Shown piece by piece: positions 513 to 35,705 of a stretch of DNA of 35,775 bases. Within the stretch, counting starts at the first letter, position 1; each line of letters opens with the position of its first letter. Made by a program: the position numbers and the translations under genes. The notes under the pieces are model-generated. The model made no database searches, was not told the origin of the DNA, and saw only the letters and a list, made by a program, of their open reading frames with translations. Origin of the DNA: Candidatus Desulfobacula maris (lineage in GTDB: Bacteria; Desulfobacterota; Desulfobacteria; Desulfobacterales; Desulfobacteraceae); contig JACNHV010000242.1 of assembly GCA_014383445.1 (NCBI GenBank), positions 1 to 35,775 of the forward strand, given 5' to 3'.

Positions 513-556
513 GGACACAGATTAACGCAGATTAGCAATCCTGAAAATCGGCGTCC
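513..556. repeat. Diverged copy of the GGACGCAGAT/ATCTGCGTCC inverted-repeat element
   Basis: GGACACAGAT at 513-522 and ATCGGCGTCC at 547-556 are imperfect ends of the same element seen intact at 31953-32386. The inner part retains TAACGCAGATTA. It is a 44-bp internally deleted copy in the 172-bp gap before the first intact glycosyltransferase gene. Confidence 0.6.
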
Positions 557-15645: not shown

Positions 15646-15712
15646 ATTTTTATAACTAATTGAATTTATTATTAAATATACAACAAAATTCCATTGCAAA
15701 AATTTGTGTTTA

Positions 15713-15728
15713 TGGCGTGATTATTGCA
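15713..15728 (+). promoter_or_regulatory. Sigma-54 (-24/-12) promoter
   Basis: TGGCGTGATTATTGCA has GG at 15714-15715 and GC at 15726-15727, the exact 12-base GG-to-GC offset of sigma-54 promoters, with TGGC and TTGCA boxes. Transcription would start near 15739 and give a leader of about 160 bases before the tagged-protein gene at 15901. Sigma-54 control of PEP-CTERM genes is known from other proteobacteria. Confidence 0.75.
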
Positions 15729-15900
15729 TTGTAAATGTGTGATTTGCACATTGCAGATAGTGTGGGTGGGAAAATTATTGAGATCATCCTGATGCGACGT
15801 ACGATATCCCCGTAAAAAGGGTGTTCCGGTAATCGCAACAGGATGCATGACAAACGATTTTTTCAACATTTTTATTTACTTTTAGAAAAGGAGGTTTTTT

Positions 15901-16488: not shown

Positions 16489-16503
16489 GTAAAAAAGAGC
16501 GGA

Positions 16504-16529
16504 GCCTTTTGGGAGAAAGGCTTTGTTCT
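16504..16529 (+). terminator. Rho-independent terminator
   Basis: GCCTTT at 16504-16509 pairs with AAAGGC at 16516-16521 around GGGAG, followed by TTTGTTCT. The stem is short and lies 16 bases after the tagged-protein stop codon. Confidence 0.55.
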
Positions 16530-16546
16530 AAATTTTGTATGGTTAA

Positions 16547-16582
16547 AAAGCTGGGTACCCATAAAATGGTACCCGGCTTTGT
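16547..16582 (+). terminator. Rho-independent terminator
   Basis: AAAGCTGGGTACC pairs with GGTACCCGGCTTT across an 8-base loop, a 13-bp stem with one G-U pair, followed by GTTATTT. This is the stronger of two successive terminators after the gene at 15901. Confidence 0.75.
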
Positions 16583-16587
16583 TATTT

Positions 16588-16650
16588 ACCATGAAGAACA
16601 TGAAGGACTTGAAGGGTAAATCTTCATGAACTTCATGTCCTTCATGGTGA
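16588..16650. repeat. Hairpin-forming pair of CATGAAGGR arrays
   Basis: ACCATGAAGAACATGAAGG in the first arm faces TTCATGTCCTTCATGGT in the second. The two arms are inverted copies of about 27 bases with few mismatches and could fold into a long stem. It ends just before the ribosome site of the export protein gene. Confidence 0.8.
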
Positions 16651-16677
16651 AATTAAAAAAATGAGGAGTGATTTTTA

Positions 16678-17235
16678 ATGAAATCAAAGGTCTGTGTTTT
16701 ATTCAGTTTTGTTCTGTTTTTTTTTCTTGTGGTGGTTTCCGGCGCAGTGGCTGATGATTATAAAATCGGGGCCGGTGATGTGCTGGACATCGGTGTGTGG
16801 AAGAATGCCGATCTGACCAGACAGCTGATTGTCCTGCCGGATGGCAGTGTGCGGTTTCCTCTGATCGGGCAGCTTGAGGTTGAAGACAAGTCTGTTGCCC
16901 AGCTTGAAAAAGAGTTAAAGGAAAAGTTGGAAAAATATGTTCCAGACCCTGTTGTGTTCACCAGTGTACTCCAGGTCAACAGCATGACGATTTATGTGAT
17001 CGGCAAGGTGAATCAGCCCGGTCGGTTTGAAATCAGAAAGAACCTTGATGTGCTCCAGGCGCTTGCCGTGGCTGGCGGGTTAAATCCCTTTGCCAGGGAA
17101 AAGGAGATCGGGATTTTCCGCAAAACAGGCGGGGAAACAACAATATTTAATTTTAATTATAAAGAGGTTTCAGAAGGTGTGAACCTGGATCAGAATATTA
17201 TGCTCCAAAGGGGCGATGTCATCGTGGTTCGATAG
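16678..17235 (+). CDS. Wza-like polysaccharide export protein
   Basis: A 185-residue periplasmic protein with a signal peptide (LFSFVLFFFLVVVSGAVA). The polysaccharide-export domain follows, with YKIGAGDVLDIGVWKN and VLPDGSVRFPLIGQL, and then an SLBB-type segment with VIGKVNQPGRFEIRKNLDVL and GDVIVVR at the end. Such proteins form or line the outer-membrane exit channel for exopolysaccharide. It is much shorter than E. coli Wza (about 380 residues) and has no lipobox, as is common for the export proteins of exosortase loci. AGGAG precedes the ATG. It starts a run of genes with close spacing. Confidence 0.9.
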   Translation: MKSKVCVLFSFVLFFFLVVVSGAVADDYKIGAGDVLDIGVWKNADLTRQLIVLPDGSVRFPLIGQLEVEDKSVAQLEKELKEKLEKYVPDPVVFTSVLQVNSMTIYVIGKVNQPGRFEIRKNLDVLQALAVAGGLNPFAREKEIGIFRKTGGETTIFNFNYKEVSEGVNLDQNIMLQRGDVIVVR

Positions 17236-17243
17236 GAGGATTC

Positions 17244-18497
17244 ATGAAATGGTTTGGATTTGCAGTTATTGTGGTGGTTGTTTTATTGGGGTCGACTTTT
17301 TCTGTATCAGCCGGTCCCACTAAGATTGTTCCCTTTGTATCCCTGACCCAGGAGTATTCTGACAATATCTTTTTTTCATCAAACAATGCGCAAGAGGACT
17401 TTATAACAACGGTTTCAGGCGGTCTGAGCATTAAACAGAAAAAAGAAGTGATTGATTTGGGTTTTAATGCCCGGTTTGACAAGTTATTGTATTGGGATTT
17501 TAGTGACTGGGATTCTCTGGATATGTTTTTTTCCGGTAATGTGAATTACAGGGCCACGGAAAGACTGGGGATCGGGGCATCTGCCCAATATTCCGAGGAT
17601 TCCAGGCGGGATCGGGAGACAGATACCACAGGTCTTCTGGTAACGGGTGACAGGGAGACGGCGCGATTTTCCCTTTCATCAAACTATCTTTTTTCTGAAA
17701 TTTTAAAGGGTGATATCACTTTGGGTTATGGGTCGGTTGCAGTAGAAGAGGCCGGCCGGATTGAAGACAATGATGATTTCCGCGTTGATATATCCTTTTC
17801 AAAAAATCTGTCCCAAACTTTCACTAACACGACGGGGCTTTTGAATATCAGCTATCTTCGTTATACGGCAGATATTGACACCATTAGTGCAGGGGCAGTT
17901 TTTACATCAAATGTGTTCCAGGAATATACATCTGATATTTTTCAGTTTTCCACGGGTTTTTCAAAGGATATCACAGAGCTGTATAATATTTACTTTCTTT
18001 TGGGTGGCAGTTATTCAAAGACAGCAGAGGGTTTGAGAATCCGGCAGACATTAACGGGAACAGGGTTTGTGCTGAGTGATGTGGCATCACCTGAAAGGGA
18101 TGACGATACCTGGGGCGGCCTGGTTTCCACGGGCCTGAAATATAACGGCCTTTATTATGATATGGGCCTGTCTCTTTCCCGGGATATGCGGGGCGCGACG
18201 GGAACAAATGGTGTGGTGCAACGGTCGTCTATTGCGGGAAATATTGATCGAAAAGTGACGGAGCAATTTGCTCTTACACTTAATGCATCCTGTTACCTGA
18301 ATGAAAATGAAAGAAACAACCAGGCGGATACAGAAGAGTTAACCCTTAATATTCAGCCCGGGTTCAGATATAAATTCACCCATGATTTTATTGTATCCTG
18401 TTTTTACAGGTTTACATCTGTTGACGACAGGCAGAACAACAGCACTAAAGAGCGGAACATGATTTATATGGTCATTAAAAAAGAATTTGAACTTTAA
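17244..18497 (+). CDS. Outer-membrane beta-barrel protein of the EPS locus
   Basis: A 417-residue protein with a signal peptide (FAVIVVVVLLGSTFSVSA) and a body of alternating polar and hydrophobic beta strands such as LGIGASAQYSEDSRR and YYDMGLSLSRDMR, ending in a terminal aromatic-containing strand. This fits the PEP-CTERM-associated outer-membrane barrel family (TIGR03016/EpsL-like) found next to export genes. It probably forms the outer-membrane pore for the polymer, partnered with the short export protein encoded 8 bases upstream. AGGAGG precedes the ATG. Length and composition are normal for the family. Confidence 0.78.
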   Translation: MKWFGFAVIVVVVLLGSTFSVSAGPTKIVPFVSLTQEYSDNIFFSSNNAQEDFITTVSGGLSIKQKKEVIDLGFNARFDKLLYWDFSDWDSLDMFFSGNVNYRATERLGIGASAQYSEDSRRDRETDTTGLLVTGDRETARFSLSSNYLFSEILKGDITLGYGSVAVEEAGRIEDNDDFRVDISFSKNLSQTFTNTTGLLNISYLRYTADIDTISAGAVFTSNVFQEYTSDIFQFSTGFSKDITELYNIYFLLGGSYSKTAEGLRIRQTLTGTGFVLSDVASPERDDDTWGGLVSTGLKYNGLYYDMGLSLSRDMRGATGTNGVVQRSSIAGNIDRKVTEQFALTLNASCYLNENERNNQADTEELTLNIQPGFRYKFTHDFIVSCFYRFTSVDDRQNNSTKERNMIYMVIKKEFEL

Positions 18498-18515
18498 TCC
18501 TGTAGAGGCAGATGA

Positions 18516-20120
18516 ATGGAAGAAAATATATTAACACCTGGTGATTATCTTGCAATTTTAAATAGAAGAAAATGGGCCCTGATTGTTCCTTTTGTTTTGA
18601 TTGTTGCCGCATCCGTTGTGACAGCACTGATGCTGCCCTCTATATATAAGTCCCAGGCAACTATCCTGATTGAACAGCGCGAAATTCCTGCTGAATATGT
18701 CACCTCCAGCATGACAACCTATGCAGAGCAGAGAATGCAGAGTATCAAGCAGCGGGTTTTGACTTCTCAGCAGCTCCAGAATTTGATCCGGCAGTTTAGT
18801 CTTTACCAAAAGCAGCTGGAAAAAATAACCATTGATGAAATTGTTGCAGAAATGCGAAAGCAGATCGTCCTGACACCTGTTAATGTTGAGGTGGCAGACC
18901 GCAGTTCAGGGCGGTCAGCAACGGCCACCATAGCATTTACCCTGTCCTATGAGGGGGAAAATCCGGAAAAGGTTCAGCAGGTTGTTAATACCATTATCAC
19001 TCTTTTCTTAAAAGAAGATTTAAAGGTAAGAACGGATCAAGCCTCCTCCACCCATGAGTTTTTAAGGGAAGAAGCGGAAAAGATCAAAGCCAAACTGGCT
19101 GAATATGAGAAAGAGATGGCCATTTTTAAGAAAAAACATGCAAATTCTCTGCCTGAACTATTCCAGGTGAACATGCAGACCCTGAACAATATTGAAAGGA
19201 ATATTGAGCTGGTCAAGGAAAATCTTCGCACCCTAAGGGAAAAAAAAGGAGGCATGGAAGAAGAGCTGGTCAATACGCCCGTTGACCTTGAGTCCGTCAT
19301 GGTGCAAAGGGGACAAAAAGATCAGGATGAAAGCCGGCTTGAAGCTTTGAAAATGGAGTTGATCAACCTGAAAACAAAATTTTCCGATCTATACCCGGAT
19401 GTTAAAAAAATTAAACAGGAGATCCAGGAACTGAGTGCAAAGGTTGAACAAAAAAACAAGGAAGCAGAAAAGACAAAACAGGTGGATAAAAACAGCGTAA
19501 AAAATCCCGCCTTTGTCACTCTGTCTTCCAGGCTGGCCGGACTGAACTCTGATATCAGTTCTCTGAATAATCAGATCGATGACCTTGAGCAGCAGGCAGT
19601 CGTATGCCGGGAGAAAATTGCCGCAACTCCGGGTGTAGAGGAAAAATATAATGCCATTCTTTCCGAAAGAAACACGCTCTACACCAAGTACAATGAGATG
19701 CAGGCTAAAATGATGGAGGCAAAGGTGGCACAGGGGCTTGAATCCGAACAAAAGGGCGAGCGGTTTACCCTTATTGAATCAGCCATTCTTCCTGAAAAGC
19801 CGTTTAAACCCAACAGGCTGGCCATTGTGCTGATCGGTATTGTTCTGGGGCTGGGCGCAGGCGTGGGCTTTGCATCCATTGTTGAGTTTTCAGACACCTC
19901 TTTCAGGGATGCAGAGTCATTGACAAGGGCAACGGGTTTTCCCGTGCTGACCGTGGTGCCGTGTATTGTAACCCGCCAGGACAGGATGAGACGGATTATG
20001 GTAAGGAGTGCGGGATTTGCCACGGCTGTTGTGGTGCTGGGTGTGTCTGTATTTTTGTTTGATCATTATGTTATGGATCTGGATGTTGTGTGGGCCAAGA
20101 TCATGCGTAGGATTTCTTAG
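18516..20120 (+). CDS. Wzz/GumC-type chain-length determinant
   Basis: A 534-residue inner-membrane co-polymerase. A Wzz domain starts near residue 5 (LTPGDYLAILNRRKWALIVP) with the first membrane helix at about 20-40. A long charged coiled-coil region spans about 170-420 (KAKLAEYEKEMAIFKKKH, NNIERNIELVKENL). A second membrane helix lies near 445-465, preceded by LPEKPFKPNR, the conserved proline-rich segment, and a third hydrophobic stretch near 500. It lacks a fused kinase domain; the kinase is separate, two genes on. It matches the chain-length protein of exosortase loci (TIGR03007). Its role is control of polymer length at the inner membrane. Confidence 0.9.
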   Translation: MEENILTPGDYLAILNRRKWALIVPFVLIVAASVVTALMLPSIYKSQATILIEQREIPAEYVTSSMTTYAEQRMQSIKQRVLTSQQLQNLIRQFSLYQKQLEKITIDEIVAEMRKQIVLTPVNVEVADRSSGRSATATIAFTLSYEGENPEKVQQVVNTIITLFLKEDLKVRTDQASSTHEFLREEAEKIKAKLAEYEKEMAIFKKKHANSLPELFQVNMQTLNNIERNIELVKENLRTLREKKGGMEEELVNTPVDLESVMVQRGQKDQDESRLEALKMELINLKTKFSDLYPDVKKIKQEIQELSAKVEQKNKEAEKTKQVDKNSVKNPAFVTLSSRLAGLNSDISSLNNQIDDLEQQAVVCREKIAATPGVEEKYNAILSERNTLYTKYNEMQAKMMEAKVAQGLESEQKGERFTLIESAILPEKPFKPNRLAIVLIGIVLGLGAGVGFASIVEFSDTSFRDAESLTRATGFPVLTVVPCIVTRQDRMRRIMVRSAGFATAVVVLGVSVFLFDHYVMDLDVVWAKIMRRIS

Positions 20121-20236
20121 ATAGTGGGTTGGTTTTTAGGATTTAAGATTTAGGATTTAGGTCGGTGGTGTGCTTGGATTATATCAAAATGAGTTTGATA
20201 TGGCAGAGTTTTTATATGAAAGTAACCACAGTTTTT

Positions 20237-20296
20237 ACCATGAAGCACATGAAGGAATTGAAGAAAAAACTTCATGGACTTCATGCTCTTCATGGT
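20237..20296. repeat. Hairpin-forming pair of CATGAAGGR arrays
   Basis: ACCATGAAGCACATGAAGG faces TTCATGCTCTTCATGGT in inverted orientation around a short A-rich loop. It occupies the 240-bp gap between the chain-length and kinase genes, along with a small AGGATTTA tandem at about 20137-20160 and a GCCCGCAAGGGC hairpin near 20318. Confidence 0.8.
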
Positions 20297-20360
20297 GATC
20301 TTTCATGTTTTGTTGTGCCCGCAAGGGCATGGCTGTTAGTTAATTCGGGAGAAAAGTAAG

Positions 20361-21182
20361 ATGAAATTGAGAAAAGCGCTTGATAAGGCAAAAGATGAAA
20401 GAGAACTCAATGGCAGAGAACTCAATGGGAAGGCTGCTCCAGAAGAGATTATTAGTGGGGCAGGGGGCAGTCAGGTTGATTCGGATACAAAAGCAGACAA
20501 GCGCCTTCTGATATATACAGAATCAAACAAGCGCCTCCTGAATCCGGCTGTTACGGAAAAAAATCGGGGTGTATGTCTGAGCCCCAATCCAGCCGAAATC
20601 GAACGGTATAAGATATTAAGAACCAGGATCAATCATCAATCAGCAGATAAACCCATGAACACGGTAATGATCACCAGCGCTAACCGCGGGGAGGGCAAGA
20701 CAGTCACCTGTATCAACATGGGGTTTACCTTTGCAAGGGAGTTGAACCATACTGTTTTTATAGTGGACTGCGACTTTAAGGGTCAGGATATCCATCGGTA
20801 CCTGGGCATAGAGAGCAAGAACAGCCTGATCGATTATTTTCTGGATGATGTTCCGTTGAATAACCTCATTATCTGGCCGGGCGTCGAAAAACTGACCCTG
20901 ATATCCGGCGACAGGACGGTTTTTGATTCATCTGAGCTGCTCTCCTCTGACATGATGGCAAAGCTTGTGAAGGAGATGGGAAACCGGTATAGCGACCGGT
21001 ATGTATTTTTTGATGCCCCGCCCATTTTAGAAAGGTCTGAAGCCATTGCCATGGCACCTTTGATGGATGGCATCCTCATGGTGGTGGAGGCTGGTGTTAC
21101 ATCGAAAAAAGATGTGCGAAAGGCAGTTGAGCTGCTGCCCAAAGATAAGTTTTTAGGATTTGTTCTCAATAAACAGGGTTAG
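20361..21182 (+). CDS. Exosortase-locus tyrosine-protein kinase (BY-kinase)
   Basis: A 273-residue cytoplasmic ATPase of the bacterial tyrosine kinase family. Walker A is in TSANRGEGKTVTCIN near residue 110, Walker A' in FIVDCDFKGQ, and Walker B in YVFFDAPP. It matches the PEP-CTERM-system kinase (TIGR03018), which works with a separate chain-length protein. There is no tyrosine-rich C-terminal tail, so autophosphorylation of a Tyr cluster is not expected here. The N-terminal 70 residues are variable and contain two small internal duplications (ELNGRELNG and KRLL...NKRLL). GGAGAAAA precedes the ATG. It should interact with the Wzz protein at 18516 to cycle polymer assembly. Confidence 0.87.
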   Translation: MKLRKALDKAKDERELNGRELNGKAAPEEIISGAGGSQVDSDTKADKRLLIYTESNKRLLNPAVTEKNRGVCLSPNPAEIERYKILRTRINHQSADKPMNTVMITSANRGEGKTVTCINMGFTFARELNHTVFIVDCDFKGQDIHRYLGIESKNSLIDYFLDDVPLNNLIIWPGVEKLTLISGDRTVFDSSELLSSDMMAKLVKEMGNRYSDRYVFFDAPPILERSEAIAMAPLMDGILMVVEAGVTSKKDVRKAVELLPKDKFLGFVLNKQG

Positions 21183-21206
21183 AATCTCAATCGACAGGGG
21201 TAAAAA

Positions 21207-22316
21207 ATGTATACTGATTTCTTTGGATTTACGGCAAAACCGTTCAGCCTGGTTCCCAATCCCAATTACCTGTACATGAGTTCAAAGCACGGTCATGCCC
21301 TGACGTTTCTGGAGTATGGCCTGGCGGAAAAAATTGGATTCGTCATGCTCACGGGCGAGATCGGAATCGGCAAAACTACGCTGATACGGTATCTGCTCAA
21401 CCAGATTGAAGCGGATACGGATGTGGCCGTTATCTTTAATACCAATGTTAAGTCCGGGGATCTGATCAACCTGATCCTGAATGAATTTGAAATTGAGTAT
21501 GAAGACGGCATCAGCAAGGCAAAAGCCCTGGACAGGCTGTATGAGTTTCTGATTCAAAAATATGCCGTCAAAAGAAAGGTTCTCCTGATCATTGATGAGG
21601 CCCAGAACCTGTCCAGTGATGTTTTAGAAGAAATCAGGATGCTTTCAAATCTCCAGACAGACGATGATATGCTCCTGCAGATCATGATCGTGGGCCAGCC
21701 GAATCTGAGGGACAAGATCCAGGATCCCCGGCTTGAGCAGTTTGCACAAAGGATATCCGTAAGTTACCACCTTTCCGCCATGACCCAGGAGGAGACAGGG
21801 GCCTATATTGCCCACCGTCTTGAAAAAGTCGGCGGCAGTCCTGAGATTTTTTCCAAAGAGTTTGTGGAAAAAATATTCGAGGTCTCCTGCGGCATACCCA
21901 GAACAATTAACCTGCTCTGCGATGCTGCCCTGCTTTATGGATATGCAGATGGTATAAAAAAGATCGGCCTGGAAATACTGGAGCAGGTGATTGAAGGCAA
22001 GGGCGGTATGGGCGTGTTTACCAAACAGAAACTGAATAATACGCAGGAGACCTGCGCTCTGTACACGGATGATCCTCTGGACAGGTTGAAAGATAAAATA
22101 TCAAAAATGGAACTGCGTATCGAACAGCTGACAAAGGCATTGAACGGCCGGCTCAAGGAATCGGAATCAAGGGCTGAATTCTGCCGCGATGAAATGGTTT
22201 CCAACCTTAAGAACCTTCTTATTGCGGAAAGAAAACGGTGTGCTTCTCTTGAATTCATGTATGGCAAGCTGCGGGGGAAATATGAGTTTTCAGAACGGTT
22301 TAACAGAGTTCAGTGA
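21207..22316 (+). CDS. ExeA-like ATPase of the exosortase EPS system
   Basis: A 369-residue AAA ATPase. It begins FFGFTAKPFSLVPNPNYLY, the typical ExeA/GspA start. Walker A is LTGEIGIGKTTLIRYLL near residue 50, and Walker B is VLLIIDEAQNLSSDVLEEIR near 125. The last 80 residues are charged and coiled (KISKMELRIEQLTKAL). It matches the PEP-CTERM-associated ATPase family (TIGR03015). Its precise role is unknown; relatives energise assembly of envelope structures. AGGGG precedes the ATG. It closes the gene run that starts at 16678. Confidence 0.88.
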   Translation: MYTDFFGFTAKPFSLVPNPNYLYMSSKHGHALTFLEYGLAEKIGFVMLTGEIGIGKTTLIRYLLNQIEADTDVAVIFNTNVKSGDLINLILNEFEIEYEDGISKAKALDRLYEFLIQKYAVKRKVLLIIDEAQNLSSDVLEEIRMLSNLQTDDDMLLQIMIVGQPNLRDKIQDPRLEQFAQRISVSYHLSAMTQEETGAYIAHRLEKVGGSPEIFSKEFVEKIFEVSCGIPRTINLLCDAALLYGYADGIKKIGLEILEQVIEGKGGMGVFTKQKLNNTQETCALYTDDPLDRLKDKISKMELRIEQLTKALNGRLKESESRAEFCRDEMVSNLKNLLIAERKRCASLEFMYGKLRGKYEFSERFNRVQ

Positions 22317-22353
22317 TTTTAATCGGGGTCAGACCACGGTTTTTTTTGTTTTT

Positions 22354-22413
22354 ACCATGAAGGGCATGAAGATCATGAAGTTTTTTCTTCAAGGCCATCA
22401 TGTCCTTCATGGT
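22354..22413. repeat. Hairpin-forming pair of CATGAAGGR arrays
   Basis: ACCATGAAGGGCATGAAG faces CATCATGTCCTTCATGGT in inverted orientation. It follows a GGGGTCAGACC repeat at 22324 and may also end the upstream transcript. It lies in the 373-bp gap 22317-22689, which also holds the palindrome and promoter below. Confidence 0.78.
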
Positions 22414-22498
22414 GATTAAAGAATTGGCCCTTTGTTTAATTCGCTTGGAATTCATAAACGTATTACATTATTTTCCACTTTTGATACATTGATTTCCT

Positions 22499-22512
22499 AA
22501 GTAAAACTACTT
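22499..22512. promoter_or_regulatory. Palindrome AAGTAAAACTACTT, likely activator site
   Basis: It has the same AAGTA-N4-TACTT inverted repeat as 15632-15645, 51 bases upstream of the next -24/-12 promoter. A partly overlapping ACTTATAAGT palindrome follows. Its recurrence before both sigma-54 promoters supports a shared enhancer-binding regulator. Confidence 0.6.
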
Positions 22513-22562
22513 ATAAGTATTTGAAAACACAATTATATAAGGATTTTATAAAGGCTAAAATA

Positions 22563-22578
22563 TGGTGCATTTATTGCA
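22563..22578 (+). promoter_or_regulatory. Sigma-54 (-24/-12) promoter
   Basis: TGGTGCATTTATTGCA has GG at 22564-22565 and GC at 22576-22577, again exactly 12 bases apart. It lies about 110 bases upstream of the tagged-protein gene at 22690, with nothing else between. Confidence 0.75.
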
Positions 22579-22689
22579 TGTAATTTTTAATAAAAAAACT
22601 AAATTTGTTGTGAGGTAATGGCGGTAAGTCAAAGGGCCTCGAAAAGGGGTTCTTCTTGGTTGGCTAAATAAGATAAATGGAGGTTGTAT

Positions 22690-23385
22690 ATGATGAAGAA
22701 ATTCTTAATGGGTTTGGTGATAGTGATATCGCTGATTGTTCTAGTTGGGGGGTCGAATGCTGCCACAATCAATATTGATTTTCAAAACCCAACTATTTTA
22801 ACTAAAATTTACAATGGTCAAGGGGTTCTTGGCTCAGGCACATACTGGAATGCTGTCGGTCATTCAGGGGCCACTAACTTACTTGATGATGCAGGAAATC
22901 CAACAGGCGTTGGAGTTGATCCGAGTTTGATCCAGAATTATGCGAATGCCATTCCTCCTGGAGATGCTCTGCTTGCTGATAGAATCATTTTTGGTCCTGA
23001 CCCAGGAACTGTTTTAATTTCAGGATTAACAGCGAATTCTTATTTTGACATAGCTGCTTATAACGGTTTCTATTCCCAGAAATATTCCATAGCCGGACAA
23101 GGTGTCATACCCGCTGAGTCAACTTCAATACAAAGCGCTAATCTTAACTATGATAATTTTGGCAGTTGGGTGGAAGGCACCCATTACGTGATATTGGAAA
23201 ATGCCCTTTCAGATGGCAATGGCCAGATCACATTGAACATTGAATCCTCACCATCATTCAATTATGGGGAGGCTATAACCATCGCTGGTTTACAAATAAG
23301 TCAAGTACCCGTCCCGGCAGCAGTATGGCTTTTCGGCTCAGGTCTGGTAGGGCTTGCAGGCTTCAGAAGATCACGCAATGCGTAA
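22690..23385 (+). CDS. Secreted protein with VPxPxA-CTERM sorting tag
   Basis: A 231-residue secreted protein from the ATG at 22690, chosen over an upstream TTG because ATGGAGG lies just before it. Residues 2-24 form a signal peptide (MGLVIVISLIVLVGGSNA). The mature part begins with TINIDFQNP and contains repeated glycine, asparagine and tyrosine turns; I recognise no named family. The tag is VPVPAAVWLFGSGLVGLAGF followed by RRSRNA, a complete sorting signal. It has its own -24/-12 promoter and upstream palindrome. It is likely a surface or matrix protein released or anchored by the exosortase. Confidence 0.87.
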   Translation: MMKKFLMGLVIVISLIVLVGGSNAATINIDFQNPTILTKIYNGQGVLGSGTYWNAVGHSGATNLLDDAGNPTGVGVDPSLIQNYANAIPPGDALLADRIIFGPDPGTVLISGLTANSYFDIAAYNGFYSQKYSIAGQGVIPAESTSIQSANLNYDNFGSWVEGTHYVILENALSDGNGQITLNIESSPSFNYGEAITIAGLQISQVPVPAAVWLFGSGLVGLAGFRRSRNA

Positions 23386-23590
23386 CAAATTCAGATGATA
23401 ATACCACGTCATGACAGGGGGCAGTTATCCTGCAATGATCAATCCGGATCGGATGGTTTGTTTAATGGGAGTGGGTCTGACCCTATTCATACTTTGGTTT
23501 TACACATGATATTACTTGAAATACAGGATAGAAAAATCTCAGGGTGGGATTTTGATATTAAAAAAAGGATTTAAGAAAATGGAAGGTCTC

Positions 23591-24229
23591 ATGAAAAAAA
23601 TAGCAATTAAAAGAGGCTGGTTTCTGGGTGTGCTGGTTGGTTTTGCGATGTTGGTTGGTACTGCATCGGCAATGGCTGGAACTTATACTTTTGTAGACTA
23701 TTTACATGATAACAACGAGGGGGATCATTTTTTTTACTCCAAAACTAATGATTTCTATATCGATGGTGAGAAAGTTGATTTTTATGATAAATATGATATC
23801 GATAGCGGATCTTTTGAAAAGGGAGTTATATCGGGATATACTAGTGGGCTTTTGAGTGGCAGTTGGAATTCGGATGGCAAAGAGATTCAGTTTTTTGTTG
23901 TTAAGGGTGGCAATCCTGATAATGGTGAGGGCTACTATGCGCTTTTTGAATGGACTTCCGGTGATAAATTTTCCGGTTCCTTTGATTTGACAGGTTTCAT
24001 CAACAATAATCCAATTTTCAGTTCCTTTATTTTGAGCATGGGGAATGGCAAGGGGAATGGGAATGGCAATGGGAATGGCAATGGGAATAATTATTTATCC
24101 GCGGTTTCCCATGTCGCCCTGTATTCAACATCCAATGTTCCCTTACCAGGAGCACTCTTGCTATTAGGTTCCGGCATAGCGGGCCTGGCTATGGTGAGAA
24201 GACGAAAGCAAAGCAGAGATGAGGGATGA
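23591..24229 (+). CDS. Secreted Gly/Asn-repeat protein with VPxPxA-CTERM tag
   Basis: About 212 residues from the ATG at 23591, which follows GGAAGG by 5 bases; longer starts at 23579 and 23516 (TTG) are in frame but lack a ribosome site. A signal peptide spans about residues 8-33 (FLGVLVGFAMLVGTASAMA). Near the C-terminus a GNGKGN repeat lies before the tag VPLPGALLLLGSGIAGLAMV and RRRKQ. The repeat is encoded by a GGGAATGGCAAT minisatellite at 24041-24090, so its length may vary between strains. No -24/-12 promoter is obvious upstream, so it may be read from the gene before it. No family recognised for the body. Confidence 0.82.
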   Translation: MKKIAIKRGWFLGVLVGFAMLVGTASAMAGTYTFVDYLHDNNEGDHFFYSKTNDFYIDGEKVDFYDKYDIDSGSFEKGVISGYTSGLLSGSWNSDGKEIQFFVVKGGNPDNGEGYYALFEWTSGDKFSGSFDLTGFINNNPIFSSFILSMGNGKGNGNGNGNGNGNNYLSAVSHVALYSTSNVPLPGALLLLGSGIAGLAMVRRRKQSRDEG

Positions 24230-24351
24230 TCCAAAGCGCTGATTAATTAATAATCATGGATATCCCCCGGAGTTATTCCGGTATTCCACAGGGCCTTAGT
24301 CCGGTTTATACAAGAATTAATTGATATTTTTTTTAACTGGAGACAAGTATC

Positions 24352-25545
24352 ATGATTCCAATCAGATATTTCCCGTCAAAAATTTTCATTTACTCGTGCA
24401 TCATTTGTTTGATCAGCATTAACCTTAACCTCCCAGCGGCCAGTTCGGCAATATTTAATCAGTCCTATAACATTATACAGGCGCATTTACAGAACCCGGC
24501 TGCCGTGTACGCACCCATATCCACGTCATCAACCCAGACATCGTCTTTTGGCAGCAGCAATTTTATTCTGGACTATGGTCCCGGTCTTACCAATGGTTCC
24601 GGCCTTACCACATTAGCAAAGAACGCTTTTGATATGGCCGCAAACCGCTGGTCAAGCTATCTGAATGATCCGGTCACCATTAAGCTGACTGTTGATTATA
24701 AAGCACTCGCTCCAAACATTCTTGGTCAGACCTCTACCTCGCTTCTGTCTGGCGGGTACAATACGGTCCGGAATATGGTTTCCAATAACGCCGGTGAAAC
24801 AAACAACGCAATGGAAAATGCCCTGCTTCCTTATCTTCCTGATTCGAGCCAATTTTCAGCGTGGCTGCCATCTGGTTTTTTTATGAATGGTTATAGTCTT
24901 CTCTCTCAGGCCAATTATCATGCACTGGGGGGGACTGACATTAACTTTAACGGTTCAGATGGATCTATAACCTTTTCCAGTGGGTTCAGCTGGGATTTTG
25001 ATCCCTCAGACGGCATTTCTGCCGGCACTTATGATTTTGTAGGTGTAGCCATGCATGAAATTGGGCATGCTCTTGGTTTTATTTCCGAAGTTGATTTTGT
25101 TGACGGGCTGTGGAATGCGGGTTTATCTTCAGACAGTATCTCGCCTACCACCCTGGATCTTTTTCGTTTCAAAACCGAGGACCTTGATCTATATGAATTT
25201 AATTTTACCGAAACATCCAGAATGCTGACTCCCGGAGATGAACAGGCTTTATATTTCGGCGACGAAATCGCATTGCTATCAACAGGGTTATACAATGGTG
25301 ACGGCAGACAGGCTTCTCACTTTAAAGACAATCTTGGACTGGGACTTCTTGATCCTACCGCGGCCGCCGGTGAATTGCTGGCCGTATCAGCGTATGATCT
25401 GGCTGCTCTGGATTTGATTGGATGGGAGATTAGTTCTGTTCCAATTCCCGGCGCTATCTGGCTGTTCGGTTCAGCACTCATTGGATTGGCGGGAATACGA
25501 AATAAGGGAAAAAATCTAATAAATTGGAAACAGACCACGGTTTAA
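24352..25545 (+). CDS. Zinc metalloprotease with VPxPxA-CTERM tag
   Basis: A 397-residue secreted protein with a signal peptide (FIYSCIICLISINLNLPAAS). The zinc motif HEIGHALGF is at residues 235-243 (His235, His239 and catalytic Glu236). The third metal ligand is not certain, though the motif resembles the metzincin-like HExxHxxG core. The body resembles the NF038122-type metalloproteases that I recall from exosortase genomes. The tag VPIPGAIWLFGSALIGLAGI precedes a basic tail. It could process surface proteins or mature the matrix. The coding strand here is C-rich, unlike the neighbouring tagged genes, which may mean separate origin. GGAGACAAG precedes the ATG. Confidence 0.85.
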   Translation: MIPIRYFPSKIFIYSCIICLISINLNLPAASSAIFNQSYNIIQAHLQNPAAVYAPISTSSTQTSSFGSSNFILDYGPGLTNGSGLTTLAKNAFDMAANRWSSYLNDPVTIKLTVDYKALAPNILGQTSTSLLSGGYNTVRNMVSNNAGETNNAMENALLPYLPDSSQFSAWLPSGFFMNGYSLLSQANYHALGGTDINFNGSDGSITFSSGFSWDFDPSDGISAGTYDFVGVAMHEIGHALGFISEVDFVDGLWNAGLSSDSISPTTLDLFRFKTEDLDLYEFNFTETSRMLTPGDEQALYFGDEIALLSTGLYNGDGRQASHFKDNLGLGLLDPTAAAGELLAVSAYDLAALDLIGWEISSVPIPGAIWLFGSALIGLAGIRNKGKNLINWKQTTV

Positions 25546-25555
25546 TGGGTTTTTT

Positions 25556-25574
25556 ACCATGAAGGGCATGAGAG
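25556..25574 (+). repeat. CATGAAGGR repeat
   Basis: ACCATGAAGGGCATGAGAG, a single partial copy. Its end supplies the GAGAGG purines just before the Com-like gene start. Confidence 0.65.
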
Positions 25575-27755: not shown

Positions 27756-27781
27756 GGGGTCAGGCTTGCTTTGTTGTCGTT
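27756..27781 (+). repeat. 26-bp repeat, inverted copy at 35680-35705
   Basis: GGGGTCAGGCTTGCTTTGTT and the next six bases are present in exact reverse complement at 35680-35705. The two bound about 7.9 kb containing the second polysaccharide set. Confidence 0.7.
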
Positions 27782-27810
27782 ATTAGCTGATAGCTGTTAT
27801 AGCTATAGCA

Positions 27811-27906
27811 GGGTCTGACCCTGATAAGTTTTTGTTTTTATAAAAGATATTGCCTGAATCAGGGGGCTAAAAAGGTCTTAGAGTGCACTTTTTGATACCA
27901 GAAAAG
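27811..27906. repeat. GGGTCTGACCC repeat with conserved tail (copy 3)
   Basis: GGGTCTGACCCTGATAAG, then T-run, GATATTG, GGTCTTAGAGTGCAC and TTTTTGATACCAGAAAA follow the same block order as 10475-10575. It lies just upstream of the broken DUF6765 gene. Confidence 0.65.
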
Positions 27907-27966: not shown

Positions 27967-28910
27967 ATGCAGATAGACATACATTACTACGCAGCATACG
28001 CAATGGCACGGCTGGCAGGGATCAGGCCCAAGGCGGCCAGAACAATTGCCACGGCATCGCAATACGTGGATGATGCCGTTGACGCAGATATCCGGCATAA
28101 TGAAAAGGGTAACAAACTTGCCCCCATTGTAACAGCGCACAAGCTTCTGGAACTTATGGAAAACAGTGATGTGAATGATCAGCCCTTTGTCTGGGTTCCT
28201 TTTCCAGTTTCTTCCGCATGTTTGGTTTCCAGGGAGGGCTGTGGACCAACGTGAGAAGATCAATTATAAGCGATGGCGCTGAAATAGCATCAGGCGCGCT
28301 GGGACATGGCGCAGTTGCAGTGCTGCCCGATCTGCCATATCTTAAGTGGAGTTTCAGATATGAGCACTCGCCTGAAACAGTCGAGCGGAACAATGCAGAC
28401 ATCTTTCTTGAAGCCTGCAGAAAACTGCACGCCATGTTTCAAAGATTTTTATCGCGCAGCACGGGCCATGATGACGGCACAAGCGGCATTGATTTTACCA
28501 GGGTGGAAGATTGCATAAAAGATATCCTGTCTTTCCAGAACGGAAAAACACAGCGATCGAAAAAATGGCGGACAGCCTTTGCCAAAGGCGAGCTTGGGAT
28601 AAAACCCGGTCAGAAAATACCGGTTTATGATCCTGGACCCTGGGATAAACAAAGAAACCATTTCCCCGCCCTGGACAAACCGGAAAAAGCCGCTGCAAGC
28701 AATGTGTACCACTTTTATCAGGCCGCCAGCATCCACCGGCACACCCTGCTCCGGGAGCTTTTGCCCAAAAACAACCTGCTCGTGGTTTAAAAAAATTATC
28801 TGAGTAAATTTACGTCCTATAAAAAAGGAGACCATCAGCTCTATCTGCCAACAGAAATTCAAAAAATGCTGGAAGGGGCTGGACGAATAAGGATACAACT
28901 CCTGTAAATT
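27967..28910 (+). pseudogene. DUF6765-type gene, deleted and frameshifted
   Basis: The first frame reads MQIDIHYYAAYAMARLAGI, then TIATASQYVDDAVDADIR and VTAHKLLEL and WVPFP, matching the start of DUF6765 proteins (acid/His-rich, possibly hydrolase-like). It is lost near 28200. A second frame from about 28215 resumes with FGFQGGLW and later GHGAVAVLPDLPYLKWSF, the C-terminal part of the family. About 60 residues between WVPF and the GFQG motif are missing and the frame changes, so the gene is inactive. The second frame stops at 28788-28790, then stays open to a TAA at about 28910 with SKFTSYKKGDHQLYLP, possibly the original C-terminus or a joined piece. Confidence 0.6.
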
Positions 28911-31061: not shown

Positions 31062-31132
31062 GGACGCAGATGAACGCAGATTACCAGGATTTTATATTAA
31101 CCCATCTGAGCCATCTGAGAAAATCTGCGTCC
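31062..31132. mobile_element. 71-bp internally deleted GxxExxY element
   Basis: GGACGCAGAT at 31062-31071 and ATCTGCGTCC at 31123-31132 are exact inverted ends. Inside are ATGAACGCAGATTACCAGG, the first codons of the GxxExxY gene, joined straight to the right flank CCATCTGAGCCATCTGAG. It is a non-coding mini copy of the unit at 31953-32386. Confidence 0.75.
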
Positions 31133-31236: not shown

Positions 31237-31473
31237 ATGACAAAAGCTGATAAGAAAAACAAAAAGATTAGAAGAAGTCAAAATAATATTAAATTTCAAG
31301 AATTTGTCACCTGGCTTGAAGACAATGGGTTCTCGCTTGATCGGATAAGTGGAAGTCATCATATTTTTGTGCATCCGATTATTGAAACCCCGATAAACGC
31401 TCAAAAAAAGAAAGATGGAACAGCAAAAGCGTATCAAATTAAGCAAGCCATTAATATTATTGATGGAGAGTAA
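31237..31473 (+). CDS. hicA: HicA-type mRNA interferase toxin
   Basis: A 78-residue HicA-like toxin. The core FVTWLEDNGFSLDRISGSHH then IFVHPIIETPINAQ has the catalytic histidine in the GSHHIF motif, and the C-terminus YQIKQAINIID fits the family helix. HicA cleaves mRNA and is neutralised by HicB. The antitoxin gene follows three bases after its stop. No strong ribosome site precedes the ATG. The gene is intact, unlike the other hicA at 35529. Confidence 0.87.
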   Translation: MTKADKKNKKIRRSQNNIKFQEFVTWLEDNGFSLDRISGSHHIFVHPIIETPINAQKKKDGTAKAYQIKQAINIIDGE

Positions 31474-31475
31474 TC

Positions 31476-31835
31476 ATGGAATATACTGTTAAAATTTTTC
31501 CTGATCCAGAAGGTGATGGCGATTATATGGCTGAAATTCAAGAACTTAAAGGGTGTTCTGCTTTTGGCGAAACACCTGAAGAAGCTCTGAGAGAAGTAGA
31601 AATAGCCATGCAATTGTGGATTGAAACTGCAAAAAAATATGGTAAACCAATTCCGAAACCGAAAAATAAAAAAATCAATGAACCTAAAAAACGGTTCAAT
31701 GTAATATTCCCTGAATCGCTCCTTTCAGATGTGGATGAGTACAGGGGGAAGCATGGAATGAAGCGGTCCGAACTCCTTGCTGCCGCTGCTGAACAATTTA
31801 TTTCATCAACCCGGAGGACTCATCTGGGGCATTAA
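31476..31835 (+). CDS. hicB: HicB-type antitoxin
   Basis: A 119-residue HicB antitoxin. The N-terminal partial RNase H-like fold shows YTVKIFPDPEGDGDYMAEIQ then ELKGCSAFGETPEEALREVE, the conserved GxxT/G-EAL region. The C-terminus RFNVIFPESLLSDVDEYRGK is a ribbon-helix-helix DNA-binding segment. GGAGAG lies before the ATG. With the hicA just upstream it forms a complete TA pair placed between two copies of the inverted-repeat element. Confidence 0.88.
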   Translation: MEYTVKIFPDPEGDGDYMAEIQELKGCSAFGETPEEALREVEIAMQLWIETAKKYGKPIPKPKNKKINEPKKRFNVIFPESLLSDVDEYRGKHGMKRSELLAAAAEQFISSTRRTHLGH

Positions 31836-31872: not shown

Positions 31873-31943
31873 GGACGCAGATGAACGCAGACCGCCATGT
31901 TTTTACAACACCCCATCTGAGCCATCTGAGAAAATCTGCGTCC
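31873..31943. mobile_element. 71-bp internally deleted GxxExxY element (second)
   Basis: It has the same length and ends as 31062-31132: GGACGCAGAT at 31873-31882 and ATCTGCGTCC at 31934-31943. The interior differs a little (CCGCCATGTTTTTACAACAC), so it is an independent or older copy. The intact element begins 10 bases downstream. Confidence 0.75.
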
Positions 31944-31952: not shown

Positions 31953-32386
31953 GGACGCAGATGAACGCAGATTACCAGGATTTTAAACACACAGACCTGA
32001 CAAAAAAGATCATTGCAATCTTTTACCAGGTTTACAACACCCTGGGCTATGGCTTTCTTGAAAAAGTGTATGAAAAAGCCATGATGTTTGAATTTAAAAA
32101 AGCCGGCATCTCCGCCAACTCCCAGTTCCCAATAAAAGTAGACTATCAAGGCCACATTGTCGGTGAATATTTTGCCGATATACTTATCGAAAACAAGGTC
32201 ATCATTGAAATTAAGGCAGCCAAAGACTTATCATTAGAAAACGAAGCCCAACTTCTCAACTACCTGAAGGCAACCCAAGCAGAAGTAGGCCTCCTTCTCA
32301 ACTTCGGCCCTGAACCCCAAATCAAAAGAAAAGCCTTTGACAATAAATAAACAACCCATCTGAGCCATCTGAGAAAATCTGCGTCC
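31953..32386 (+). mobile_element. 434-bp inverted-repeat element carrying the GxxExxY gene
   Basis: The perfect 10-bp terminal inverted repeats GGACGCAGAT (31953-31962) and ATCTGCGTCC (32377-32386) enclose exactly one gene. The start codon of that gene lies inside the left repeat. Both sides of the copies tend to show ATAAA-like sequence. This arrangement is what a small cassette or MITE-parent element would look like; transposition is inferred, not shown. Confidence 0.6.
31961..32350 (+). CDS. GxxExxY family protein
   Basis: A 129-residue protein of the GxxExxY family (TIGR04256). The name-giving motif is in NTLGYGFLEKVYEKAMMFEF near residue 30-45, and the second half VDYQGHIVGEYFADILIENK then VIIEIKAAKDL is a PD-(D/E)XK-nuclease-like core. 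Function is not established. The start codon is part of the left inverted repeat, so the first residues MNAD are repeat-encoded. AGGA upstream is only a weak ribosome site. The protein is full length with the family motif intact. Confidence 0.85.
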   Translation: MNADYQDFKHTDLTKKIIAIFYQVYNTLGYGFLEKVYEKAMMFEFKKAGISANSQFPIKVDYQGHIVGEYFADILIENKVIIEIKAAKDLSLENEAQLLNYLKATQAEVGLLLNFGPEPQIKRKAFDNK

Positions 32387-32389: not shown

Positions 32390-33946
32390 ATGAGAACCTT
32401 GAAAATAATCGCCATTATTCTCTTATCCTTTATGGTAATCATAAACTGCGTCCTGTTCCTATCCAGGTTTCAATACCAGAATGGAATCAATTTCATGCAC
32501 GAGAAAGAATATGATATGGCCCTTGCCTCCTTTACCCGGGCTGAAAACCTGATCCCCCCGTTTTTAGGCAAGATCTTTTTTCTCCAGGACCATATGCGCA
32601 TCCATACTCAAAAAGGGATGGCCTTCCATGACCAGGGCCTTGCCCTCTGGAAAGAAAAAGGCATATCCACCAACGTATCTGCATTGTACAAAAAAGCCGG
32701 AATCAGCTTCACCAAAGCCGCTAAAATAGATCCAGGCGATTATATCACCACCTATTGGCTTGCAAAAACACAAAACGCCCTGGAGTCTATAACGGGATAC
32801 CTTAAGCCCCATGACCCAAACCCCTATAATGCCCAACCCCTCTATGAAAAAGCCATTGCCTTAAGACCCAGCGGCATCGAGGTCCATTATGCCTATATCC
32901 GTTATCTCTACAACAAAGGAGAAAAAAAACGCATCCCAGAACTTGTTCAATATATGACTCAAATCTACCCCCAATCCTACTTTCATCTGAAAAAAGAACC
33001 TTTTTTTAATGACTATCTTATTGCGAACATGGAAACAGGCCTTTTATCTGCCCTGGATCAGGACATAACCCCCATATCTGCTTTCCAGGCACTCTCTGAT
33101 ATCCAGGTCGCAAAAAAAAACTATCATAAAGCAATTACCTATTACAGTAAAAGCCTGGAAGTTAAACCCTTTACCAACACATCAGGCAACTATCTGAACA
33201 TGGGGCAATTGTATTTAAAAAGCCAACTCCCGGAAAAAACGGAAAAGACCACTATCTGGTTTACAAAGGCATTAAAAAAGGCAGACAATTTTGATGCCAC
33301 CCTTGAAAAGATATTTAACATCTACACACGAGCAAAGGCATTGGATGAATTTATCCGGTTTTCCATCCACATCGAAGAAAACCTGGCCCATCCCCCCGTC
33401 CTGGATATCAGCATTGCAGAGGCCTGGATTAAAATGGGAAACCCCCAGCTTGCAAGGGCAAGACTGCTCAAGCTCAATGCAAAAAAGCCCAATGCACACG
33501 CCCACTACCTTTTAGCGACCATCGCTGAACGAGAAAACGACTGGGACCAGATGGAAACCTCCATCCAGCGGGCAACACTGCTGGATCAAAACAACTACAC
33601 CTATTACAACCTGCTCACAAAGGCCCTGATAAACCAACAAAAATACACCCATGCCGAAGAAACAGCCACAAAAGCCATAACCCTTGCGCCAAAAAACAAT
33701 CCCTGGGTTTTCAACAGCCGGGCTGTCATCCGATGGCGCCTGAAAAAATATTCCCCGGCGGCTTCAGACTGGGAAAAAGCCTTTACCATAAAACCCGACC
33801 AAAGCGATTTTCCCTACCGAATAGCCCTGGCAATGGAACAGGAAGGCAACTTTAAAAAAGCCCAGACCTTTGCTGTCAAAGCCCTGACCCTTGCCCCAGA
33901 CAACAAAAAATACAAAACCCTTGAAACCCGGCTAAAAACCCACTGA
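32390..33946 (+). CDS. Membrane-anchored TPR protein of the second EPS set
   Basis: A 518-residue protein with an N-terminal membrane helix (IIAIILLSFMVIINCVLFLS) and a periplasmic solenoid of TPR-like units, such as ALASFTRAENLIPP, SFTKAAKIDPGDYITTYWLA, YYSKSLEVKPF and EETATKAITLAPKNNPWVFN. TPR proteins of this layout accompany O-antigen ligase/polymerase genes. It starts 4 bases after the right repeat of the GxxExxY element, and its stop falls in another right-end copy of the repeat at 33943-33970. The coding strand is C-rich. No enzyme motif is visible; a scaffold role is inferred. Confidence 0.78.
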   Translation: MRTLKIIAIILLSFMVIINCVLFLSRFQYQNGINFMHEKEYDMALASFTRAENLIPPFLGKIFFLQDHMRIHTQKGMAFHDQGLALWKEKGISTNVSALYKKAGISFTKAAKIDPGDYITTYWLAKTQNALESITGYLKPHDPNPYNAQPLYEKAIALRPSGIEVHYAYIRYLYNKGEKKRIPELVQYMTQIYPQSYFHLKKEPFFNDYLIANMETGLLSALDQDITPISAFQALSDIQVAKKNYHKAITYYSKSLEVKPFTNTSGNYLNMGQLYLKSQLPEKTEKTTIWFTKALKKADNFDATLEKIFNIYTRAKALDEFIRFSIHIEENLAHPPVLDISIAEAWIKMGNPQLARARLLKLNAKKPNAHAHYLLATIAERENDWDQMETSIQRATLLDQNNYTYYNLLTKALINQQKYTHAEETATKAITLAPKNNPWVFNSRAVIRWRLKKYSPAASDWEKAFTIKPDQSDFPYRIALAMEQEGNFKKAQTFAVKALTLAPDNKKYKTLETRLKTH

Positions 33947-33970
33947 GCCCATCAGAGAAAATCTGCGTCC
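33943..33970 (+). repeat. Right end of the GGACGCAGAT element
   Basis: TGAGCCCATCAGAGAAAATC then ATCTGCGTCC at 33961-33970, with no left end nearby. It carries the stop codon of the TPR gene and lies just before the start of the ligase gene. Confidence 0.7.
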
Positions 33971-33982
33971 CATAAGTCCCAT

Positions 33983-35254
33983 ATGAATATACCATTTTAC
34001 ATAATCTGCACCCTGATCGTATTCACCCCTCTTGCCCGTGGTTCCGTCCATCCATGGGCAACAACCATCATCCAGATCCTGATTCTGCTATCAGCCATCA
34101 TTATGGTCGCAAAAAAAACCGCCATCCCAAAAACACCAATGACCAAACCCATAACAGCCATCCTGATCCTGTGCGCAGTATCCTTTACCTTTTCTTCCCA
34201 CAAACCCGTTGCCTTTGAAGGGCTTCTCATGCTTTTAACATACATAGCAGCCTATTTTATAACCCAGTCCTGTGTCAAAACCAGAAAACAGCAGCGCATC
34301 CTGGTGTACACCATCATAGCAACGGCCATACTGCTCTCCGTCATCGGCATATTCAAACGCTTCGGCCTGAACCCCTTACCCTTCTGGATATACCCTGATA
34401 TCGGCAACCCCTCACCCGATTCAATCTCAGGCGCATACGTCAACCGAAACCACCTGGCAGGATTCCTTGAAATGGCAATCCCCCTGCTTATCATATTGTT
34501 CATCACCCGGCAAAGAACCCTTGAAACAAAACTCGGCCTTGTCTTCCTGACCCTGTTCCTCCTGACAACCCAGGCCTTTACCCTGTCACGCGGCGGATGG
34601 ATATCCACCATAACGGCCATACTCTTTTTGGCAGTTGTATTACTATCCCAGAAAAGTTTTGTTGACAAAAAAATCATTTTGACAATCGGAGCCTGCATTG
34701 TAATCATGTCTCTTTTTATCCTTGCAAGCCTGCCCGTTGTTGAAAGAATCACCACCCTGACCCAGCAGGATACCACAGACAATATTTCCGGCAGGATGCG
34801 ATGCTGGAAAGGCACCATTCTCCATATAAAAGACAACCTGCTCCTTGGAACCGGCCCCAATACCTTTACCGTGGCATACCCTGCTTATCAAATCCCGGGG
34901 CCTGCTGTCTTAAGACGCTATGCCCACAACGACTACCTGCACTTCACAGCAGAAACGGGAATCCTGTTCATCCCGATATTAATGTACACGCTATTTTGCT
35001 TTTTCAGAACAGGCTTTCAAAACCTGAAAAGCCAAAGCCGCCAGAAAAAAGGGATTGCCCTGGGCGCCATGGCAGCAATCTTTGCCATACTTATCCACTC
35101 CTTTTCTGATTTCAACCTGAACATACCAGCCAATGCCTTCACCTTCACCGTCATAGCAGCACTGGTATTTAACCCATCTGAGTCATCTGAGAAAATCTGC
35201 GTCCCCAAAAAAAAAGTTATCCTTATTAACTTTATGGCTTATTATAAAGCTTAA
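33983..35254 (+). CDS. O-antigen ligase/polymerase-like membrane protein (Wzy_C family)
   Basis: A 423-residue multi-pass inner-membrane protein. Its conserved parts are YVNRNHLAGFLEMAIPLL near residue 152, TLSRGGWISTITAIL near 200, the periplasmic loop SGRMRCWKGTILHIKDNLLL near 270 with GTGPNTF, and YAHNDYLHFTAETGI near 315. These mark the O-antigen ligase/Wzy_C family, which joins or polymerises lipid-linked glycans in the periplasm. The last 30 residues (NPSESSEKICVPKKK) are encoded by a right-end repeat copy, so the native C-terminus has been replaced or extended. It has no recognisable ribosome site; the repeat precedes it. Confidence 0.87.
   Translation: MNIPFYIICTLIVFTPLARGSVHPWATTIIQILILLSAIIMVAKKTAIPKTPMTKPITAILILCAVSFTFSSHKPVAFEGLLMLLTYIAAYFITQSCVKTRKQQRILVYTIIATAILLSVIGIFKRFGLNPLPFWIYPDIGNPSPDSISGAYVNRNHLAGFLEMAIPLLIILFITRQRTLETKLGLVFLTLFLLTTQAFTLSRGGWISTITAILFLAVVLLSQKSFVDKKIILTIGACIVIMSLFILASLPVVERITTLTQQDTTDNISGRMRCWKGTILHIKDNLLLGTGPNTFTVAYPAYQIPGPAVLRRYAHNDYLHFTAETGILFIPILMYTLFCFFRTGFQNLKSQSRQKKGIALGAMAAIFAILIHSFSDFNLNIPANAFTFTVIAALVFNPSESSEKICVPKKKVILINFMAYYKA
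35171..35204 (+). repeat. Right end of the GGACGCAGAT element inside a coding region
   Basis: AACCCATCTGAGTCATCTGA then ATCTGCGTCC at 35195-35204, read in frame by the ligase gene. No left end is near, so only the right end is present. Confidence 0.8.
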
Positions 35255-35655: not shown

Positions 35656-35679
35656 AGTCTTGATACTTTACCCCCAAAC

Positions 35680-35705
35680 AACGACAACAAAGCAAGCCTG
35701 ACCCC
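35680..35705 (-). repeat. 26-bp repeat, inverted copy of 27756-27781
   Basis: AACGACAACAAAGCAAGCCT followed by GACCCC is the exact reverse complement of the repeat at 27756-27781. It lies in the gap after the hicBA remnant. Confidence 0.7.

Follow-up and report, generated by a model that had tools for sequence, protein, structure and literature searches.

REP/REPIN-RAYT systems combine a dedicated nuclease-type gene with short inverted repeats next to it and with gene-less doublets of the repeat, which spread. Co-evolution of repeat and enzyme has been proposed, and the RAYT itself, a tyrosine transposase, is described as single-copy and apparently unable to move itself (PMC3116915, available sections). 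A different type of enzyme is represented by Rpn: RpnA cuts DNA with little sequence specificity in vitro, and its cleavage products can prime template switching (PMC5350276, available sections).

Here, a GxxExxY gene of Candidatus Desulfobacula maris was analysed together with the whole 35,775-nt stretch of contig JACNHV010000242.1 in which it lies (the window). Like REP-RAYT loci, GxxExxY genes are accompanied by inverted repeats (161 of 232 genes examined). However, the enzyme is of the PD-(D/E)XK type and lacks a tyrosine (Y1, HUH) transposase match, and the gene itself moves, occurring in multiple copies within elements at different sites. By analogy, REPIN-RAYT appears to be the nearest system in logic, with an unrelated enzyme. 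Rpn (transposase_31, PF04754) is likewise a PD-(D/E)XK nuclease but belongs to a separate Pfam family from GxxExxY (PF13366). The miniature derivatives resemble MITEs in being internally deleted copies with the parent's ends; unlike in MITE systems, the parent has no transposase family match and no clear target duplication. Insertion sequences and DDE transposons differ in that a GxxExxY gene fills the unit here and no transposase gene is present, and homing endonuclease elements differ in that similar GxxExxY elements sit at differing sites. We assign a probability of about 0.55 to the reading that the 434-bp unit in the window is a self-mobile element consisting of a nuclease and tandem-word ends, with a minimal PD-(D/E)XK nuclease as its sole gene and MITE-like derivatives. 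Comparison establishes insertion of the unit, with the nuclease as the agent that we infer for it.

Organization of the element in the window

A preliminary description of this DNA had proposed one GxxExxY gene, its start codon inside the left end, within a 434-bp unit whose 10-bp ends are exact inverted repeats, and both coordinates and profile matches agree with it (Table 1). The ends are GGACGCAGAT at 31953-31962 and ATCTGCGTCC at 32377-32386; the ATG start codon at 31961 begins inside the first 10-mer and runs past its last base. On its strand the unit contains a single ORF (31961-32350), and no second gene was found among the ORFs. This ORF matches PF13366 (E 4.7e-41, 140.2 bits, curated cut-off 22) and TIGR04256 GxxExxY (E 1.7e-39, 134.8 bits, curated cut-off 35); these were its sole profile matches, with none to a transposase family, and PF04754 (Transposase_31, Rpn) gave no match to the protein at 0.001.

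The arms are built from tandem words (GGACGCAGAT GAACGCAGAT TACCAGGATT), and 15 copies of the end 10-mer, allowing up to one mismatch, are present in the window where 1.06 are expected; none of 100 shuffles reached 15. In the whole genome, assembled to 94% completeness as 400 contigs (4.85 Mb), the left-end 20-mer is found in 11 places if up to two mismatches are allowed, and there is one PF13366 match only. In the general arm test described below the element scores 10, under the cut of 12, because the inner words of its right arm have drifted; its case rests on the minis.

Table 1. Element, miniature copies and relics in the window
Feature	Position	Strand	Description
Full-length element, 434 bp	31953..32386	+	left arm, GxxExxY gene, right arm
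Left arm	31953..31985	+	tandem words GGACGCAGAT / GAACGCAGAT / TACCAGGATTTT
GxxExxY gene, 129 aa, PD-(D/E)XK nuclease family	31961..32350	+	profile matches, conserved residues
Right arm (inverted)	32353..32386	+	CCATCTGAG / CCATCTGAG / AAAATCTGCGTCC
Mini element 1, 71 bp	31062..31132	+	internal deletion of parent
Mini element 2, 71 bp	31873..31943	+	parent's end pair at both borders
Diverged mini copy, 44 bp	513..556	+	1 mismatch per end
Right-end-only relic, end of ORF 32390-33946	33937..33981	+	71% identity to reference copy
Right-end-only relic in 3' part of ORF 33983-35254	35171..35215	+	91% identity to reference copy
Diverged right-end-only relic	28784..28828	+	60% identity to reference copy

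The same end pair bounds the two 71-bp units, as had been claimed, and their proposed MITE-like derivation holds: mini 1 is the parent minus its middle (first 33 and last 34 nt identical, 67 of 71 nt), and mini 2 has its first 19 and last 32 nt in common with the parent. Both are non-coding internal deletions that keep the parent's ends, and such units recur in several places, as is characteristic of MITEs; the minis fold as hairpins (about -24 kcal/mol as RNA). The diverged 44-bp copy is also present, and the three right-end-only relics are additional to those listed before. The relic at 35171-35215 lies within the last part of ORF 33983-35254 and so seems to supply coding sequence.

Conservation and predicted fold of the GxxExxY protein

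The residues D73, E83, K85, Q97 and Y101 are invariant among 42 aligned sequences; in a second set of 69, used for structural modelling, K85 and Q97 are conserved at 90% or more rather than invariant. The AlphaFold2 model (mean pLDDT 92.6) matched 4ic1 (SSO0001, E 1.3e-4), LHK-Exo 3syy (8.3e-4) and Hjc 2wiw (1.8e-3). At E 0.001 or below the matches were four PDB chains, three from SSO0001 and one from LHK-Exo; Hjc and λ exonuclease came next. SSO0001 is, we presume, a Cas4. These are the nearest solved folds to the model, but TM-scores by query length are only 0.43-0.57, and a search of the PDB with the family profile gave no sequence relatives even at an E limit of 10. With its D...ExK residues and modelled nuclease core fold, the window protein fits the PD-(D/E)XK superfamily and is a likely DNA-cutting enzyme. 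Comparison of related copies, most of them at different sites, gave dN/dS values of 0.037-0.199 in 20 of 21 pairs, dS being saturated in one pair and in all five window comparisons. This pattern indicates purifying selection, under which the protein is kept functional.

A nuclease of this type might instead serve in defence or as a toxin, as Rpn does, with the repeats forming its regulatory or spreading context. Rpn, a PD-(D/E)XK family first proposed as DNA-mobilising, was later reported as an anti-phage toxin-antitoxin system (PMC10327210, available sections), which calls for caution on any mobilising reading, and two relatives gave weak PADLOC matches (PDC-M36A at best 1.6e-4, Cas4 at best 0.0027). 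We nevertheless regard a defence role as improbable, given that the window protein has no PADLOC match at 0.1 and the 434-bp unit no second gene, and that minis and tracking words would be left unexplained.

Inverted repeats around GxxExxY genes across phyla

Loci were drawn from the window's family (PF13366 match in 23 of 86 genomes, six only weak or short), from its phylum (55 of 148 genomes), from the best 80 of at least 563 confirmed named loci, and from the 41 genomes behind 42 of these 80. Since loci were picked by score and copy number, with related loci kept separate, the sample is not random. The profile search gave 273 matches, 238 after removal of duplicates, and 232 with at least 80 nt on each side. 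For each gene, the upstream flank was compared with the reverse-complemented downstream flank, each taken to a length of at most 150 nt. An inverted repeat scoring at least 12 brackets 161 of the 232 genes, in several phyla, compared with 13 of 232 when the downstream side came from another locus and 7 of 539 shifted windows at the same loci. An earlier test at a stricter score had given 26 of 52 loci (six weak matches, L029-L034, and L062 excluded); its controls were 0 of 198 for shifted windows and 1 of 52 for swapped sides. Among the named loci it had given 35 of 77 against 0 of 271, with 3 of the 80 excluded as too short.

The strict arm test is missed by 71 of the 232 genes, yet strict arms or tandem words on one side are present at 198 (one-sided control, 12 of 280), leaving 34 with neither. 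The existence of GxxExxY genes without a flanking repeat, raised beforehand as evidence against mobility, is thus real for this minority and not the rule. That the GxxExxY gene resides in an inverted-end element with MITE-like derivatives is supported, and by these counts the arrangement extends well beyond this window.

PF13366 matches per genome number up to 15 in the 41 genomes behind named loci, fragments possibly included. The window protein had no match in 50,697 phage records at 1e-5 and matched 8 of 72,556 plasmid records. For hicA genes of the window's family, 11 of 30 loci were dropped as cut or of odd length; none of the 19 kept reached 12 within 150 nt (own shifted windows, 3 of 38), and one did within 450 nt, by an AT-rich match. 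HicAB as a regular cargo was accordingly rejected.

Arm words and their divergence with the protein

The arms consist mostly of tandem words of about 7 nt, repeated every 8-10 nt and usually pointing inward. With a degenerate pattern chosen from the first loci ([CA][AG][CG]N[GA]A[AGT]), 134 of the 161 bracketed loci held at least three words and the other 27 were dropped; polarity is inward in 124 of the 134. With a stricter pattern (C-R-C-N-R-A-D), the spacing was 8, 9 or 10 nt for 306 of the 313 pairs of neighbouring words lying up to 14 nt apart. Inward chains of at least two words flank 88 of 232 genes on both sides (2 of 280 control windows) and 158 on at least one side (12 of 280), compared with outward chains on both sides at 11. 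The commonest words are CGCAGAT, CACGGAT, CACAGAG, CACGGAA, CGCGGAT, CGCAAAG, CACGAAG and CACAGAT, and the 37 named loci with such words that could be placed belong to 12 phyla, with Bacteroidota (15) and Chloroflexota (6) foremost.

The word varies between elements and follows the protein tree. Its mean distance rises stepwise from 0.58 of 7 positions at 70-90% protein identity to 2.76 at 20-30%. The last base requires 13 changes on the tree against an average of 57 with shuffled labels, and the other three variable positions 20, 33 and 32 against 33, 52 and 43; at each position all 200 shuffles needed more changes than were observed. For cross-phylum pairs among the 37 named loci the trend is weak (rho -0.15; 19 of 500 permutations as strong). 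A unit passed on intact carries its gene and its arms together, so linkage by itself predicts some agreement, which could reflect shared inheritance; the concerted change of words in both arms is explained less well by linkage alone.

At residue level, the amino acid before the Y of the QxxxY motif, N or T in 110 of the 134 loci, distributes against the last word base as 71/3/1/35. The tree attributes the N/T difference to one independent change, a single clade split, and the last base changes without it in about 2.7 of 3 independent pairs. Residue-level specificity was accordingly set aside, and no contact is claimed, because that one change is all the tree offers.

Filled, decayed and empty sites

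The preliminary description had proposed a search of related genomes for gene-bearing copies, minis and empty sites. Similar elements do occupy different sites in the relatives. Five (L013, L014, L016, L017 and L020) are 86-91% identical and lie at three sites, L013 sharing that of L014 and L016 that of L017, with similarity that stops at or near the arms. Three others (L182, L183 and L186) are 86-88% identical on different contigs of one genome, and L071-L073 differ in their flanks, though about 20 nt outside the left arm are common to L071 and L072.

Empty orthologous sites also exist, as judged from the relatives' elements rather than the window's own site. Of the 21 genomes in which the L014 site was looked for, all but G002, G018 and G043 allowed its state to be called. 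The site is filled in G014, G028 and G022 (the last with unread bases), decayed by internal deletion in G013 and G030 and to the left end only in G027, and holds a different insert in G029. Eight genomes are empty without trace (G012, G024, G016, G017, G019, G020, G021 and G055), and three (G023, G025 and G026; L291, L293 and L292) are empty but retain AACCACG or AACCACGG. This AACCACG(G) is identical to the arm end and is likelier a remnant of excision or deletion than a pre-existing target, because the eight other empty sites lack it. The L017 site was unusable for empty alleles, its flanks being too diverged in the genomes searched.

At a second intergenic site, compared in 10 genomes, a CACGGAA mini is present in G028, G027, G022 and G013 and a shorter one in G023, G025 and G029; G012 carries a CATGAAG palindrome, G030 another insert and G014 nothing. 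In addition, G022 contains five minis of 124-125 bp on different contigs with one common internal deletion junction, so these minis multiplied after the junction arose. Another mini type, 134-135 bp long, is found in G022, G027, G028 and G030, some copies apparently at the same site. Several minis (L360-L375) have about 25-30 nt outside the arms in common (left ...CCTGAATTTTAACA..GCTGA, right ATAAACAGGAGATGTTGA). The outer border is therefore not always the arm, and some mini copies may have wider borders than the arms.

The target-duplication comparison gave a very slight excess of 3.70 against 3.49 nt (1 of 200 shuffles). No clear target duplication was found, none was readable at the L014 or the second intergenic site, and the ATAAA-like duplication suggested earlier did not appear. 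Taken together, these comparisons show a discrete unit that inserts at new sites, has empty or decayed orthologous sites and produces internally deleted miniatures, which spread.

Two other accounts bear on these sites. Under homing, the nuclease would cut the empty allele and the element would be copied in by recombination with flanking homology, in keeping with one intergenic site that is filled or was once filled in several species. We consider this unlikely, since similar elements lie at unrelated sites with little flank similarity, the eight traceless empty sites hold no arm word to cut, and the AACCACG(G) at the other three is more simply a remnant. The arms might otherwise not be mobile ends at all but act on the gene as operators or terminators, a role to which the hairpin folding of the minis would be suited. 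Gene-less copies elsewhere and common deletion junctions make this highly improbable, and the empty sites already contradict it as a complete explanation.

Repeat number and gene presence

The 86 family genomes were divided into 17 with a long GxxExxY match (E <1e-20), including a copy with two stops in G026 and one interrupted by unread bases in G022, and 69 others. CACGGAA pattern matches, counted with the arms of gene-bearing elements included, have a median of 15 in the former and 0 in the latter (p 3e-9); within genus g4 the difference between 11 genomes with and 8 without the gene persists (p 0.007). The association is not perfect: G023 and G029 have many repeats (24 and 34) without any PF13366 match, and the reverse holds for G000 and G071, where the gene is present but CACGGAA matches are absent. 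Gene and repeats thus go together, though not perfectly.

The persistence of repeats without the gene in G023 and G029 would suit a model in which an unrelated host enzyme mobilises tandem-word palindromes and the nuclease gene is cargo. The same applies to CATGAAG palindromes of the same build, with 153 pattern matches in G077, where no PF13366 gene was found (70% complete genome), and to a CACGGAA arm pair in G012 that brackets genes of another kind (see below). Such a passenger role for the gene is possible but rather doubtful in our estimate, because the word changes along with the GxxExxY clade, hicA genes as a class lack arms (0 of 19) and related copies of the GxxExxY gene show purifying selection.

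Proposed mechanism and significance

In the self-mobile reading, whose nuclease step the preliminary description had likewise offered as a possibility, the nuclease would bind the mostly inward-pointing tandem words of both arms, probably when these are folded as a hairpin or cruciform or exposed as single strands during replication, and would cut at the arms. Host repair, for example by primer-template switching, might then rejoin the unit or copy it into intergenic DNA. RpnA offers an analogous precedent for cleavage products that prime template switching, within the available sections cited above. Repair-based rejoining or copying would be in keeping with the absence of clear target duplications. 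Minis, which keep the arms, would be served in trans, and word and protein would diverge together because one must recognise the other. We know of no lone PD-(D/E)XK enzyme that carries out a whole transposition.

The literature searched, in which subscription papers and preprints are partially covered, contained no account of GxxExxY genes in repeats, and no mention of PDDEXK_3 with inverted repeats or of six repeat words. We rate the unit as a categorically new kind of element, because its gene does not encode the enzyme of RAYT systems, DDE insertion sequences or Rpn; the enzyme's role within it is what we infer. At even odds, in our judgement, GxxExxY elements form a separate, phylum-spanning class of transposable elements. 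In that class a lone PD-(D/E)XK nuclease of about 120 residues, with no transposase, would move a unit bounded by inward tandem words of about 7 nt. Each lineage would recognise its own word and spawn REPIN-like miniatures, from which a large share of the short repeats of CACGGAA, CACGAAG, CACAGAG and CGCAGAT type found in environmental genomes would derive. If so, structured ends and a minimal repair-type nuclease would be enough for transposition-like spread, and no transposase would be needed. The widespread GxxExxY family of unknown role would gain a function and a class of interspersed palindromes an origin, and many natural pairs of nuclease and DNA word would become available for specificity work.

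Neighbouring genes and other palindromes

A HicAB-like pair occupies 31237-31835 of the window, exactly between the two 71-bp minis. The CACGGAA arm pair in G012 (L356 3206-3779) has between its arms a HicB gene and an ORF that resembles HicA weakly, below the Pfam cut-off. Beside arm pairs further along the same locus (4301-6780) lie genes for a MazE-type antitoxin, a protein with RRXRR and HNH domains, which we take to be IscB-like, and a PemK/MazF-type toxin.

A partner gene was sought for the CATGAAG palindromes and none was identified. This second family, of the same build (ACCATGAAGnnCATGAAGnn...), has 41 pattern matches in the window genome beside those of G077, many paired as units of about 60 bp with constant spacing. 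In the window, pairs occur at 16585-16651, 20237-20296 and 22354-22413, and single arms from 6774 to 25570. Repeats of the GGGGTCAGACCC type, which presumably resemble RAYT-linked palindromes, lie at 8196-8269, 10392-10550, 27756-27884 and 35677-35705.
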